Shown here: piece after piece, positions 1 through 46,735 of the stretch
How positions within the stretch are numbered: the first letter of the stretch is position 1
How the letters are laid out: each line of letters starts with the position of its first letter
From: Brevundimonas lenta
GTDB taxonomy: Bacteria; Pseudomonadota; Alphaproteobacteria; Caulobacterales; Caulobacteraceae
Reading direction: 5' to 3'
DNA length: 64,000 nt
Assembly: GCF_014196335.1 (NCBI RefSeq)
Contig: NZ_JACIDM010000001.1
Span: 310,001-374,000 of the forward strand
Program-made: the position numbers and the translations under genes
The notes under the pieces: model-generated
Databases searched by the model: none
The model's input: the letters and a program-made list of their open reading frames with translations, nothing else
What the model was told of the DNA's origin: nothing

Positions 1-553
1 CATTGGCGGCGCGGATGCCCCGGTGGGCCAGGTAGATGCAGGTCGGGGTCTTGGACGTGCGGCTGACCCCGCACAGGACGACGTCGGCGCTTTCCAGCTG
101 TTCGGTCGAGCCCTGACCGTCGTCGTGGGCCATGGCGAAGTCCAGCGCGGCGATGCGATTGAAATAGTCGGTGTCGAGCGCGTGCTGGGCGCCCACGCGG
201 GTCGACAGGGCCGCGCCGAGATAGCGCGACAGGGCCCCGACCAGCGGATCCAGTGCCGCGATCTGGGGCATGTCCAGCTTACGGCACCCTTCCTCCAGCT
301 GTTCGCGCAGCTCACGGTCGACGAGGGTGTGCAGAACCACGCCGGGGGCCGAGGCGATCTCCTCCAGCACCCGCTCCATCTGCCGCTCCGAACGGACCAG
401 GGCGTAGATGTGCTCGATGGGGATGACGCCGTCGAAGCGCGCCACCACGGCCTTGGCCATGGCGTTCAGGGTCTCGCCGGTGGAGTCCGAAACGAGATGG
501 ACGTGGAAATAGGTGGCCAGACGCGACGGCCCGGCCGGACGGGCGGGACTCAT
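1..553 (-). CDS. ppsR: Pyruvate, phosphate dikinase / PEP synthase regulatory protein (DUF299), 5' part
   Basis: Partial gene: the first 184 codons are in the window and the 3' end lies beyond position 1. Read on the minus strand from the ATG at 551-553, the protein opens MSPARPAGPSRLATYFHVHL and continues with VSDSTGETLN. Near the window edge it has GVSRTSKTPTCIYLAHRG, the P-loop-like motif of the DUF299 family. Members phosphorylate and dephosphorylate pyruvate phosphate dikinase or PEP synthase, using ADP and inorganic phosphate, and so switch gluconeogenic flux. The family is the RP001 type found beside hemE at the Caulobacter origin, and here too it is transcribed divergently from hemE across the intergenic region. 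Family assignment is firm; which dikinase it controls cannot be seen here. Confidence 0.93.
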   Translation of the reverse strand, partial: MSPARPAGPSRLATYFHVHLVSDSTGETLNAMAKAVVARFDGVIPIEHIYALVRSERQMERVLEEIASAPGVVLHTLVDRELREQLEEGCRKLDMPQIAALDPLVGALSRYLGAALSTRVGAQHALDTDYFNRIAALDFAMAHDDGQGSTEQLESADVVLCGVSRTSKTPTCIYLAHRGIRAAN

Positions 554-1065
554 GTGGAGAAGCTCATCGGCGGCCGGGGAAACGGAGGTCCATGGGGCAG
601 ACTCCTGTGGACGGGGCAGTGCGCCGTTCTGCGGACGGCCGGGCGCCGATCTCTATAGCGGGCCATGGTCGAGCTCGCGAGCGGGATGAAGGTGGATGGC
701 GAAGGCCGCCGTCCGAAGGTTCGTCCACGGACCGTCCCGGCGATCGACGCGCTCTGTGGAAGACCCGTCGAGGGAGCGGTCGGCGCCCAGGCCGGGCGAG
801 GGCTCCAAACCCCCGGAAAAGCCCGATGTTAAGGCCTTGTTAAGGATTATCCCCGGTATCGACAGGGGGGCCCGGACCTGTCGAAGGGCCTGTGGCTATC
901 TGCGGACAACCGCTCCGGAACCGGTCGATTTCGCCGACTTGTCCCCGCCATCCCCCGCCCAAGCCACTTCCTACCAAATATCTTCGATTCAAATGATGAG
1001 AAGGAAGGGGTGCGACACAGGCCTGGGCTTGAGCGTGGAGCACGCCCCCGGTAAGTCCGGTGGTG
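554..1065. other. oriC: Probable chromosomal replication origin (Cori-like), ppsR-hemE intergenic region
   Basis: A 512-bp gap between divergent ppsR and hemE with no convincing gene. It holds a perfect TTAA-N7-TTAA CtrA box at 829-843. DnaA-box-like 9-mers, each 7/9 to TTATCCACA, lie at 847-855 (plus strand), 755-763 and 891-899 (minus strand). A locally AT-rich stretch at about 971-1003 could serve as the unwinding element. In Caulobacter crescentus the origin lies exactly between hemE and the RP001 gene and is repressed by CtrA. Three parS-like sites and parAB follow within 11 kb, which fits. The origin call rests on context plus the CtrA box; the DnaA boxes taken alone are weak. Confidence 0.8.
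829..843. promoter_or_regulatory. CtrA binding site (TTAA-N7-TTAA)
   Basis: TTAA at 829-832, seven bases, then TTAA at 840-843: a complete match to the Caulobacterales CtrA full box. The DnaA-like 9-mer at 847-855 starts four bases later, so CtrA and DnaA would compete for adjacent DNA, as known at Cori. The site could also control the hemE promoter. Confidence 0.75.
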
Positions 1066-2112
1066 ATGACCTCCCGGACCGATACGCCCCTGTTCCTCAA
1101 GGCCCTCGCCGGCGAGACGACGGAGCGACCGCCGGTGTGGTTCATGCGCCAGGCGGGGCGCTATCTGCCGGAGTACCGGGCTCTCCGGGCGACGACTCCC
1201 GACTTCATCTCGTTTTGCCTCAACCCTGAGAAGGCCGCCGAAGCGACGCTGCAGCCGATGCGGCGGTTCGGCTTCGACGCGGCGATCGTGTTCGCAGACA
1301 TCCTGCTGATCCCTCAGGCCCTCGGCCAGGAGGTGTGGTTCGAGGCGGGCGAGGGACCGCGGCTGGGCGCGCTGCCGTCTGTGGAAAGCATGCGGGAGAA
1401 GGCCGCCGGGGCCGGCGAGGCGCTGAAGCAGGTTGGACAGACGCTGTCGATCGTCCGGGAGAACCTGGAGCCGGAGCGGGCCCTGATCGGCTTCGCGGGC
1501 GCGCCGTGGACGGTGGCGACCTATATGCTGGACGGCGAGGCGCGGACCATCGGCAAGGGCGAGCGGGCCCAGGCGCGAACCTACGCCTACGCCGAGCCGG
1601 AGAAGGTCCAGGCCGTGCTGGACGTGCTGGTCGAGGCGACCGCGCATTATCTGAAGATGCAGGCCGACGCCGGGGCGCAGACGCTGAAGATCTTCGAGAG
1701 CTGGGCCGAGGGCCTGCCGGACGATCTGTTCGAAAGCCTGGTGCTGAAGCCGCATCAGAAGCTGGTGAAACGGGTCCGCGAGCTGGGCGTGACCGTGCCG
1801 CTGATCGGCTTCCCGAGGGGGTCCGCGGCGCTGGCGGAGCGCTATGCGGCCGAATGCGACGTGCAGGCCGTGGCGCTGGACACCGCCTGTCCGCTGGAGG
1901 TCGGCAAGCGGGTGCAGGCGATCAAACCCATCCAGGGGGCGCTGGACCCCCTGCTGCTGCGCGCCGGCGGGCCGATGCTGGATCGCCGCGTCGATCAGCT
2001 GCTGGAGGCCTGGGGGAAGGGGCCGTGGATCTTCAACCTCGGCCACGGCATTCTGCCGGATGTGCCGATCGCTCATGTGGAACAGGTTCTGAAGCGGATC
2101 GGCGCGCAATGA
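1066..2112 (+). CDS. hemE: Uroporphyrinogen decarboxylase
   Basis: Decarboxylates the four acetate side chains of uroporphyrinogen III to give coproporphyrinogen III in cytoplasmic heme synthesis. The protein is 348 aa, normal for the family. The N-terminal signature PPVWFMRQAGRYLPEYRALR carries the arginines that bind substrate carboxylates. GFAGAPWT, the FESWAEG segment and the C-terminal FNLGHGILPD motif are all recognisable. I chose the ATG at 1066; GTG codons at 1060 and 1063 are in frame and could be used, since no strong Shine-Dalgarno sequence separates them. The stop overlaps the hemH start (ATGA, 2109-2112), so hemE-hemH-hemJ is probably one translationally coupled operon leaving the origin region. 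Confidence 0.96.
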   Translation: MTSRTDTPLFLKALAGETTERPPVWFMRQAGRYLPEYRALRATTPDFISFCLNPEKAAEATLQPMRRFGFDAAIVFADILLIPQALGQEVWFEAGEGPRLGALPSVESMREKAAGAGEALKQVGQTLSIVRENLEPERALIGFAGAPWTVATYMLDGEARTIGKGERAQARTYAYAEPEKVQAVLDVLVEATAHYLKMQADAGAQTLKIFESWAEGLPDDLFESLVLKPHQKLVKRVRELGVTVPLIGFPRGSAALAERYAAECDVQAVALDTACPLEVGKRVQAIKPIQGALDPLLLRAGGPMLDRRVDQLLEAWGKGPWIFNLGHGILPDVPIAHVEQVLKRIGAQ

Positions 2113-5545: not shown

Positions 5546-5561
5546 TGTTTCACGTGAAACG
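5546..5561. other. parS: parS site 1 (ParB nucleation site)
   Basis: The 14-bp core GTTTCACGTGAAAC occupies 5547-5560 and is a perfect palindrome matching the bacterial parS consensus; the flanks T and G make the 16-mer. ParB, encoded 5 kb downstream, is expected to bind here and spread. It lies between the rho 3' hairpin and the DUF6489 gene, just upstream of that gene's ribosome site. Confidence 0.92.
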
Positions 5562-7387: not shown

Positions 7388-7403
7388 GGTTTCACGTGAA
7401 ACA
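7388..7403. other. parS: parS site 2 (ParB nucleation site)
   Basis: The perfect palindromic core GTTTCACGTGAAAC is at 7389-7402, identical to site 1. It lies in the intergenic region about 50 bases upstream of the mnmG start, in a non-coding context, and so is probably maintained for ParB binding. Confidence 0.92.
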
Positions 7404-9310: not shown

Positions 9311-9930
9311 GCATTTCAGACGCGGCCGCTTTTCAGGCCCGGACCAACGCCACGCCGGCGCAGATGGCGGACCTTCAGACCTTCATCGACCGACTGACGG
9401 AAGCCAACGCCGTGATGAACCTCGTCGGGCCGGACAGCCTGCCCGACGTGTGGAACCGCCACATCTGGGACTCGGCCCAGCTGCTGGATTATGCGCCGGA
9501 CGCCATGACCTGGGCCGATCTGGGCGCCGGGGCCGGTTTCCCGGGCGTGGTGCTGGCCATCATGCTGAAGTCGACGGCCAAGTCCCACGTGTGGCTGATC
9601 GACAGTCTCGGCAAGCGCTGCCGCTTCCTGCAGGAGGTGGTCGACGCGCTGTCGCTGCGGGCCACGGTGATCAACGGCCGGGCCGAGGAAAATGCGGTCA
9701 CCGTCGATGTCGTGACCGCCCGCGCGGTGGCGCCTATGGAAAAGCTGCTCGGCTATGCACAGCCTTATCTGCAGAGAGGCGCGCAGGGGCTGTTCCTGAA
9801 GGGCGAAAAGGCTGAGGTTGAGTTGATCGAAGCCCGCAAGGTCTGGCGCTTCGAAAGCGACCTGTCCGTCTCGCGCAGTGACCCGCGCGGCCGTATCGTA
9901 TCCGTCCGGAGCCTCCGCCGTGCGCGCTGA
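9307..9930 (+). CDS. rsmG: 16S rRNA (guanine527-N7)-methyltransferase RsmG (GidB)
   Basis: SAM-dependent methyltransferase for G527 of 16S rRNA; loss gives low-level streptomycin resistance in other bacteria. The protein is 207 aa with a GTG start overlapping the mnmG stop. Motifs include [13 protein letters not shown] near residue 40 (family LxxxNxxxNLt), [12 protein letters not shown] and the SAM-binding loop [30 protein letters not shown] and [13 protein letters not shown] complete the fold. The last eleven bases overlap the predicted start of parA, so segregation and rRNA or tRNA modification genes are co-transcribed, a very conserved order near bacterial origins. Confidence 0.95.
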
Positions 9931-10732
9931 CCGAAAGACCCGCGTCCTCGCCGTCTCCAACCAGAAGGGCGGGGTGGGCAAGACCACCACGGCCATCAAC
10001 CTCGGCACCGCCCTGGCCGCCATCGGCGAGAAGGTGCTGATCGTCGACATGGACCCGCAGGGCAATGCCTCCACGGGTCTGGGCGTTCCACGTGAAACAC
10101 GCCGGGTGACGATCTACGACGTGATCGTGGACGGCCGCGCCGTCGACGATTCCGCCGTCCAGACCTCCGTGCCGGGGCTGTTTATCCTGCCGGCCGATCC
10201 GGACATGTCGGGCGTCGAGATCGAGCTGAGCCAGGCCGATCGCCGCTCGTTCCGCCTGCGCGATGCGCTGGGGTCCCAGGGCCGGGACGGACATACCCGG
10301 TACGACTATGTGCTGATCGACTGCCCGCCGTCGCTCAATCTGCTGACGCTGAACGCCATGGCCGCGGCGGACGCCGTGCTGGTGCCGCTGCAGTGCGAGT
10401 TTTTCGCGCTGGAGGGCCTGACGCAGCTGATGAAGACAATCGACATGGTGCGCCAGAGCCTGAACACCTCGCTGGAGATCCAGGGCCTGGTCCTGACCAT
10501 GTTCGATCGCCGCAGCGCCCTGTCGGGGCAGGTGGCCAACGATGTGCGCGCCCACTTCGGCGACAAGGTCTACGACTCGGTCATTCCGCGGAACGTGCGG
10601 GTCGCCGAGGCGCCGTCTTTCGGCAAGCCGGCGCTGATCTACGACCTGAAATGCGCCGGCAGCCAGGCCTATCTGCGGCTGGCGCGCGAGGTGGTGGCGC
10701 GTGAGCGCAAGCGGCGCCTGCAGGCCGCGTAG
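9920..10732 (+). CDS. parA: Chromosome partitioning ATPase ParA
   Basis: Walker-type ATPase that moves ParB-parS complexes to the opposite pole. The 270-aa protein from the GTG at 9920 begins [15 protein letters not shown], with the deviant Walker A motif KGGVGKTTT at residues 16-24. VDMDPQGNAST is the A' motif and DYVLIDCPPSLNLLT is Walker B. An in-frame ATG at 9878 lies deep inside rsmG and would add a non-family extension; with GTG the N-terminus matches known ParA proteins. A parS-like site lies inside the gene at 10084-10099. parB follows after a 28-bp gap, making a parAB operon. Confidence 0.95.
   Translation: MRADRKTRVLAVSNQKGGVGKTTTAINLGTALAAIGEKVLIVDMDPQGNASTGLGVPRETRRVTIYDVIVDGRAVDDSAVQTSVPGLFILPADPDMSGVEIELSQADRRSFRLRDALGSQGRDGHTRYDYVLIDCPPSLNLLTLNAMAAADAVLVPLQCEFFALEGLTQLMKTIDMVRQSLNTSLEIQGLVLTMFDRRSALSGQVANDVRAHFGDKVYDSVIPRNVRVAEAPSFGKPALIYDLKCAGSQAYLRLAREVVARERKRRLQAA
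10084..10099. other. parS: parS site 3, inside parA
   Basis: Core GTTCCACGTGAAAC at 10085-10098: one mismatch to a perfect palindrome (C in the left arm against the A in the right arm). The C-variant arm is also used in natural parS sites. It falls in the parA codons for GVPRETRR, so ParB could spread over its own operon from here. Confidence 0.8.
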
Positions 10733-10760
10733 TACAGATTTAGAAGAACGGATCAGTATC

Positions 10761-11648
10761 TTGAGCGAACGTCAGCGCGGTCTGGGCCGGGGATTGTCGG
10801 CCCTTCTGGGGGAACAGGTTGCGGACGCGGTTCCGGTGGACGGCTCGCCCGCCCCCGCCGGCGTGCGTATGGCGCCGATCGAGAGCCTGAAGCCCAATCC
10901 CGACCAGCCCCGGAAGATCTTCAATCGCGAGGACCTGGAGGAACTGGCCACCTCGATCCGCGACAAGGGCGTGCTTCAGCCCATCCTGGTCCGGTCGCAG
11001 CCCGGGCAGGACGGGGTCTGGCAGATCATCGCCGGCGAACGCCGCTGGCGCGCGGCCCAGCTGGCCCGCCTGACCGAGGCGCCGATCGTCGTGCGCGAGA
11101 TGGACGACGTCGAGGTGTTCGAGGTCGCGATCATCGAGAACGTCCAGCGCGCGGACCTGAACCCGCTGGAAGAGGCCGACGCCTATCGCATGCTGATGGA
11201 GCGTTTCGGCCGCACCCAGGACGCCGTCGCCGGCGTGGTCGGCAAGAGCCGCAGCCATGTGGCCAACACCCTGCGCCTGCTGCAGCTGCCGGAAGAGGTG
11301 CTGCAGTACGTCCGCGAGGGCAAGCTGTCGGCCGGTCACGCCCGCGCGGTGATCACCGCGCCGAACCCCGTCGAGCTGGCCGATCAGGCCTATCGAGAGG
11401 GCCTGAACGTGCGTCAGGTCGAGGCGCTGGCGCGCCGCGCCGCCGAAGGTCCCCGGCCTGGTCGGTCGCGCCCGGCGACGGTGAACGGCGAAGGCTCGGC
11501 CGACGTCGCAGCGCTTGAGCAGGATCTGGCCGACGCCCTGGGCCTGAAGGTCCAGCTGGCCGACAAGGGCGGCCGGGGCGAGCTGAGCATCCGCTACGCC
11601 TCGCTGGAGCAGCTGGACGACCTGTGCCGCCGGCTTATGCGCGGCTGA
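10761..11648 (+). CDS. parB: Chromosome partitioning protein ParB (CTP-dependent clamp)
   Basis: parS-specific DNA-binding CTPase that spreads as a sliding clamp. I chose the TTG at 10761, giving MSERQRGLGRGLSALLGEQV, the usual opening with an RGLGRGLSALLG ParA-interacting motif; the 295-aa length is then normal. The CTP-binding domain has the LKPNPDQPRKIF strand and the IAGERRWRAAQLA arginine patch. The ENVQRADLNPLEEA motif and a helix-turn-helix around VAGVVGKSRSHVANTLRLLQLP follow. The C-terminal dimerisation domain carries LADALGLKV and GELSIRYASLEQLD. An ATG at 10701 in frame overlaps parA and would add 20 foreign residues. Confidence 0.95.
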   Translation: MSERQRGLGRGLSALLGEQVADAVPVDGSPAPAGVRMAPIESLKPNPDQPRKIFNREDLEELATSIRDKGVLQPILVRSQPGQDGVWQIIAGERRWRAAQLARLTEAPIVVREMDDVEVFEVAIIENVQRADLNPLEEADAYRMLMERFGRTQDAVAGVVGKSRSHVANTLRLLQLPEEVLQYVREGKLSAGHARAVITAPNPVELADQAYREGLNVRQVEALARRAAEGPRPGRSRPATVNGEGSADVAALEQDLADALGLKVQLADKGGRGELSIRYASLEQLDDLCRRLMRG

Positions 11649-46397: not shown

Positions 46398-46545
46398 GGG
46401 CGATGGGCTCCGTCGTCCCCGCGCGAGCGCGTCGCGGCGACGTATGGATGGCGACCGACCCGCCCGGAACGGACGGCGCAAGTGTCGGGTCGCCTCGACG
46501 GATCACCGCGTCTCTGTCTGGTCCCGGACAGCGGACGGACGACGT

Positions 46546-46735
46546 CGGCGGCCAGGTCTCCTGGCTTGCGGGTCAATAGCCGCCGCTCTCGCCTTCCCGG
46601 CTTCTCCCGAAGGATGGGCCAGTGACGCCGAAGATAGCTCTCCGGATCGAACGACGGCCTCGCCGCCTACAGTTGCGGGCACAGCCACGGTTTCGCACCG
46701 TGTTCCCTTAACCGCCTGCCGGGCTTGTCGCAGTG
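46546..46735 (-). ncRNA. Cobalamin (adenosylcobalamin) riboswitch
   Basis: Read on the minus strand the leader has TTAAGGGAACACGGTGCGAA, then GCTGTGCCCGCAACTGTAGG, then TCACTGG and GGGAAGGCG, then CAAGCCAGGAGACCTGG. These are the conserved core elements of the cobalamin riboswitch, in the right order and spacing. It lies about 150 nt upstream of the btuB-like start and should repress expression when B12 is plentiful. The approximate ends are drawn at the outer conserved blocks; the P1 stem limits are uncertain. Confidence 0.95.

Follow-up and report, generated by a model that had tools for sequence, protein, structure and literature searches.

The best-described counterpart of the locus studied here is the Caulobacter replication origin, Cori. 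Cori is placed between hemE and COG1806 (PMC1914354), five CtrA sites have been reported in it (PMC4468827), and its W-boxes and G-boxes are given as TCCCCA and TGATCCACA, respectively (PMC4285127). The Rickettsia prowazekii origin, compared by its flanks alone, is also described as lying between hemE and COG1806 (PMC1914354). A different point of reference is the basal unwinding system, for which the published rule is a DnaA box, a spacer of up to 16 bp and at least three DnaA-trios (as given in PMC8287927). A search by title in the open-licence literature yielded no paper dedicated to the Brevundimonas origin.

The DNA analysed (the window) is a stretch of 64,000 nucleotides from Brevundimonas lenta, corresponding to G000:C1:310001-374000 in a genome of 3,360,201 bp (3.36 Mb) and 6 contigs. 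Near its left edge, a non-coding gap (554-1065) separates the divergent genes ppsR (COG1806/DUF299; 2-553, minus strand, running past the window edge) and hemE (1060-2112, plus strand). The hemE product matched TIGR01464 (E 1.6e-109), and the PpsR-like protein, whose gene is cut by the window edge, matched NCBIfam PRK05339 with E 1e-62 and a score of 212 bits, below the cut-off (225). The hemE start is ambiguous by 6 bp (GTG 1060, GTG 1063 or ATG 1066), and the gap comparisons below use 506 bp, ending before 1060. Downstream of hemE, the gene order is hemH, rho, mnmE, mnmG, rsmG, parA, parB. No Rfam family reached its gathering threshold in the gap. Elsewhere in the window, a cobalamin riboswitch was found on the minus strand (46534-46730, 77 bits, Rfam).

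An earlier note, made from the letters of this DNA, had proposed the gap as a probable chromosomal origin on account of its divergent flanking genes, its Cori-like position, a perfect CtrA box with an adjoining DnaA-like 9-mer, further weak DnaA-like sites, an AT-rich patch, and parS and parAB on the hemE side. Each of these elements was recovered. The flanks, hemE and COG1806/ppsR, are those of Cori (PMC1914354). The CtrA box, TTAAGGCCTTGTTAA, is a perfect TTAA-N7-TTAA at 829-843, one of 3 copies in the genome as compared with 1 for a control pattern; use of this motif in Brevundimonas is backed by phage work in B. subvibrioides (PMC9437464). Three bases beyond the box lies the DnaA-like TTATCCCCG (847-855, plus strand). 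In all, five boxes in the gap differ from TTATCCACA by two mismatches at most, two of them on the plus strand (starts 847 and 856) and three on the minus strand (starts 755, 891 and 901), where 0.38 are expected per 506 bp; 0.05% of the other segments of C1 1-620 kb reach five. No exact DnaA box occurs in the gap of the window genome. Further DnaA-like words are TCGTCCACG (721-729, plus), TCTTCCACA (755-763, minus, 2 mismatches) and the tandem DnaA/W-box-like pair TTGTCCCCG and CATCCCCCG (939-957, plus). The AT-rich patch, a candidate unwinding region, spans 966-1005 and has the lowest 40-bp GC content in the gap (35%), a value reached by 1.2% of 506-bp segments. The motif search that the note had called for thus returned CtrA and DnaA-type sites, whereas its IHF part gave a weak result: the sole IHF-like match in the gap (830-842, 1 mismatch) lies within the CtrA box. 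IHF-like matches within one mismatch were present in 20 of 61 genus gaps, as compared with 6.7 in shuffles.

To compare the locus across the genus, we used 61 genomes of at least 90% completeness, the window genome included, and collected the DNA upstream of hemE from all of them (30 loci and 31 stretches). Both hemE and a divergent upstream ppsR were present in 61/61, with a gap length of 422-536 bp (median 479). Among the named loci, the divergent arrangement was found in 62 of 80, including 37/37 of L100-L136. The best-kept blocks in the alignment of the 61 gaps were TCCTGTGGA, GCGAGCGGGATGA, CTGTGGAA, the CtrA box region, TTATCCCCG and TTRTCCCCG-YC-RTCCC, the last of which precedes the AT-rich patch. 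In the window, TCCTGTGGA (minus strand TCCACAGGA) lies at 603-611 and has a DnaA-box-like core, and GCGAGCGGGATGA (minus strand TCATCCCGCTCGC) lies at 677-689. An inverted repeat spotted by eye at 859-884 (TCGACAGG...CCTGTCGA) was dropped because the alignment shows poor conservation of its second half.

The place of 847-855 begins with TTATCC or TTGTCC in 46 of 61 genomes, and the place of 939-947 reads TCCCCG in 54 of 61. Since they are kept at these fixed places, the weak DnaA-type sites look constrained, and the note's guess that initiator binding may rest on variant motifs fits this pattern. Counts obtained with a DnaA-like regular expression are circular, unlike the TTATCCACA count, because that motif was partly learned from the same gaps. 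Domain IV of DnaA matched E. coli 1J1V with E 6e-30 and kept the RPRQ and GRDHTTV stretches, which we take to be the parts that contact the DnaA box.

The locus resembles Cori in having CtrA boxes near DnaA-type sites, weak TCCCC-type W-boxes and an AT-rich region, and in its distance to parS, which is about 8 kb in Caulobacter (PMC1914354, PMC4468827, PMC4285127 and PMC6399470) and 4.5-6.3 kb here. In the Caulobacter locus L115, the AT-rich part lies towards hemE, as it does in the window genome. The two origins differ in that Cori has five CtrA boxes and the gap one, and the gap contains neither a TGATCCACA G-box nor a separate IHF site. In addition, dnaA is on another contig here, whereas we assume it to be near the origin in C. 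crescentus. The exact G-box TGATCCACA was found in none of the 61 genus gaps, and of the 62 named gaps two had it (L113 and L115); it is a trait of C. crescentus and its near kin, not of all hemE/COG1806 origins. The gap also resembles the basal unwinding system (as outlined in PMC8287927) in its tandem weak DnaA-like boxes, GC-rich spacer and AT-rich patch. The DnaA-trio model was nevertheless rejected, as the published rule returned no trios in the gap of the window genome. Across the genus, the rule found them in 10 of 61 gaps (shuffles: mean 3.5, maximum 9), and at the conserved module they were rarer than in shuffles (13/61 versus 25.6).

Two parS-like sites, each with 1 mismatch, were located at 5546-5561 and 7388-7403, and these (C1:315546 and 317388) are the only parS matches within one mismatch in the window genome. 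The parA (9878-10732, plus) and parB (10701-11648, plus) genes follow on the same side, about 9-11 kb downstream; we presume that parAB lies on this side of the origin in C. crescentus too. In ten genomes, 31 of 32 parS sites (up to one mismatch), including the two of the window genome, were at a distance of 4-9 kb from the start of hemE; the remaining one, in G070, was 58 kb away. A change in strand bias was detected with GGGNAGGG, which we take to be an FtsK-orienting motif. On sampled stretches of C1, it occurred 43 times forward and 40 times reverse to the left of the gap and 112 and 25 times to the right (Fisher p 4e-6). Left and right of hemE also differed in G012 (p 0.003) and G009 (p 0.002), and no significant switch was seen within 100 kb of hemE in G070 (p 0.60) or G030 (p 0.10). 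In G009, where hemE lies at 893 kb and dnaA at 1,219 kb, 100 forward positions among the GGGCAGGG matches listed gave a change point at 938 kb (support 762-938 kb).

The place of the gap, its CtrA and DnaA-type sites, its AT-rich patch, the nearby parS sites and the strand switch of GGGNAGGG all agree, and we favor the reading proposed by the note: 554-1065 is very likely the chromosomal replication origin of this Brevundimonas species and an ortholog of Caulobacter Cori. The gap is very probably ordinary in kind, the Brevundimonas counterpart of Cori.

GC skew behaved differently. The note had named a skew minimum clearly elsewhere as a finding that would refute the origin, and no minimum was seen at the gap: skew is positive on both sides of it, and the nearest switch is about 100 kb away. 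The strand-corrected third-position skew goes from negative values to positive ones near C1 210 kb, to the left of the gap, and the raw skew of sampled stretches flips sign again by 450, 750 and 900 kb. In G012 and G009, skew showed no clear change at hemE either. GC skew was rejected as an origin locator, since the gap has no switch; we read it as weak, patchy and uninformative in this genus, and this patchiness weakens the objection. The sign change near G000:C1 210000 is perhaps a rearrangement scar.

These observations feed the alternative of an active origin at another site, either next to dnaA or at the skew switch of C1 near 210 kb, with the ppsR-hemE gap as a relict. Besides the skew, it draws on the location of dnaA on C3, a different contig from hemE (C1), and on the GGGNAGGG change point itself, which over C1 1-620 kb falls at 296-300 kb (support 266-302 kb), 10-15 kb to the left of the gap at 310.8 kb. 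The cumulative minima on C1 are at 135 kb for GGGNAGGG and at 253 kb for GGGCAGGG. On C3, however, GGGNAGGG counted 22 forward and 65 reverse over 14 stretches, with a reverse bias in 13 of 14, and it was reverse-biased on both sides of dnaA with no side change there; an origin at dnaA was rejected on this ground. The clustering of parS sites by hemE in ten genomes and the conservation of the gap sites across the genus also argue against a displaced origin, and the skew that would support it is patchy. In Caulobacter, asymmetric inversions around the origin have been described, one displacing dnaA by 50 kb (PMC4221894). An active origin elsewhere is therefore very improbable in our estimate. 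A second alternative reduces the gap to a two-way ppsR/hemE promoter under CtrA control. The flanking genes are indeed divergent, and the blocks kept close to ppsR could belong to promoters; yet this explanation accounts for neither the DnaA-like cluster, the AT-rich patch and the parS linkage nor the conservation of the gene pair in 62/80 named loci, and we give it scarcely any weight. Promoters and an origin may coexist in one gap.

For the Cori-type origin, a mechanism can be sketched on the model of Cori itself (PMC4468827 and PMC6399470). DnaA would load on weak variant boxes, namely TTATCCCCG at 847 and the tandem TTGTCCCCG/CATCCCCCG at 939, and the loaded DnaA would then open the AT-rich patch (966-1005) beside hemE. 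CtrA~P on the single box at 829-843 would compete with or block the neighbouring DnaA site (847-855), and this block would, as at Cori, delay firing in swarmer cells. At a distance of 4.5-6.3 kb, ParB bound to parS would help to carry the new origin to the pole.

The single CtrA box of the window species departs from the common layout of the genus. A perfect box was present in 30 of 61 genus gaps (0.1 in shuffles); with one mismatch allowed, the number rose to 48 of 61 (2.6 in shuffles). Two boxes of up to one mismatch, 52-65 bp apart from start to start, were found in 39 of 61 genomes, with a distance of exactly 64 bp in 24; another arrangement with at least one such box was seen in 9. According to the alignment to L010, the place of box 1, which is present in most relatives, is decayed in the window (766-780). 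It has decayed likewise in the sister genome G010, and the window genome retains box 2 (829-843) only. The common layout of the genus is two CtrA boxes, mostly 64 bp apart, of which the window species has lost the first.

In 13 of 61 genomes, the gap has no CtrA box within one mismatch. Eleven of these form one clade in the ppsR tree (bootstrap 100, SH-aLRT 98), which we refer to as the B. diminuta-like clade (L019, L021-L024, L028, L029, L032-L034 and L068); L068 has a long branch in this tree. Mapping of the boxless label on the tree required 3 changes, as compared with 11.9 in shuffles. The ctrA gene was intact in 15/15 genomes searched, all 13 boxless ones included, with 88-90% identity to the query. 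Outside the gap, a perfect box, TTAATACGACCTTAA, occurs elsewhere in the genome in at least 5 of the 11 clade members, and whole counts over the 11 genomes gave a modest excess of perfect boxes (65 versus 40 for the control pattern).

The gaps of the B. diminuta-like clade are rich in GGCGCC, a palindrome present there in 6-11 copies each (mean 7.9), where base composition predicts 0.44; the mean over the other 50 genomes is 2.1. The excess in the gap is roughly five- to tenfold in 8 clade genomes, because the genome-wide background is about 1.0-1.2 per gap length in 8 of the 9 counted (clade n = 11). The genome of G030 (L068) has few GGCGCC words, 474 in about 2.9 Mb, for which avoidance by restriction is a possible cause; other windows of 200 kb reach at most 3 copies versus 9 in the gap. 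The G070 gap has 7 copies, and 0.04% of other windows have at least that many. Distances of 18-24 or about 50 bp between copies are common, a spacing that would suit binding on one helix face. There are three shared places, with a copy nearby in 35, 35 and 27 of the 61 genomes and in 11/11 clade members at each; a copy within 3 bases of a TTAA was found in 9 of 61. In the window genome, the first place, at about 620, is degenerate, and the second (642-647) and third (782-787) are exact, the third being kept beside the lost CtrA box. An extra sample came from two DNA searches of 131 genomes, with loci fetched for 32 genomes beyond the 61; these were chosen because they resembled one of two gaps, and only genomes with a fetched locus were counted. 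Within this sample, 8/8 genomes with a diminuta-type gap had no CtrA box and 7-11 GGCGCC copies, and 24/24 of the others had at least one CtrA box and 1-5 copies. A piece of about 28 bp from the gap in B. diminuta (query about 148-180) also matches off-origin DNA, at 93% in the window genome (G000:C2:54149-54177) and at 90-93% in four other genomes.

We tentatively suggest that GGCGCC marks putative sites of an origin regulator that might have replaced CtrA in the B. diminuta-like clade, where the phased copies take up much of the origin. The window species, with a single CtrA box and two exact copies of GGCGCC in its gap, would be a possible intermediate. This replacement is doubtful: loss of the CtrA boxes and gain of the GGCGCC array count as one event, because both belong to one clade; the copies number only 2 in the boxless G025 and 3 in the boxless G040; and G003 combines 7 copies with two one-mismatch CtrA boxes. 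A search of the open-licence literature for GGCGCC with replication origin and DnaA box returned only a Streptomyces validamycin title.

New here are the two-box layout of the genus, the loss of box 1 in the window species and the boxless B. diminuta-like clade with its intact ctrA and its 6-11 GGCGCC copies. In ten relatives, dnaA is about 138-530 kb from hemE (by the shorter way round in single-contig genomes), and 4 of the 10 assemblies examined open at dnaA; the probable origin is now placed for a genus in which some assemblies start at dnaA, far from hemE. Among close relatives, origins with two CtrA boxes, with one and with none form a natural series. With ctrA intact in the 15 genomes searched, the role of CtrA at the origin becomes testable by comparison, beyond mutation alone.
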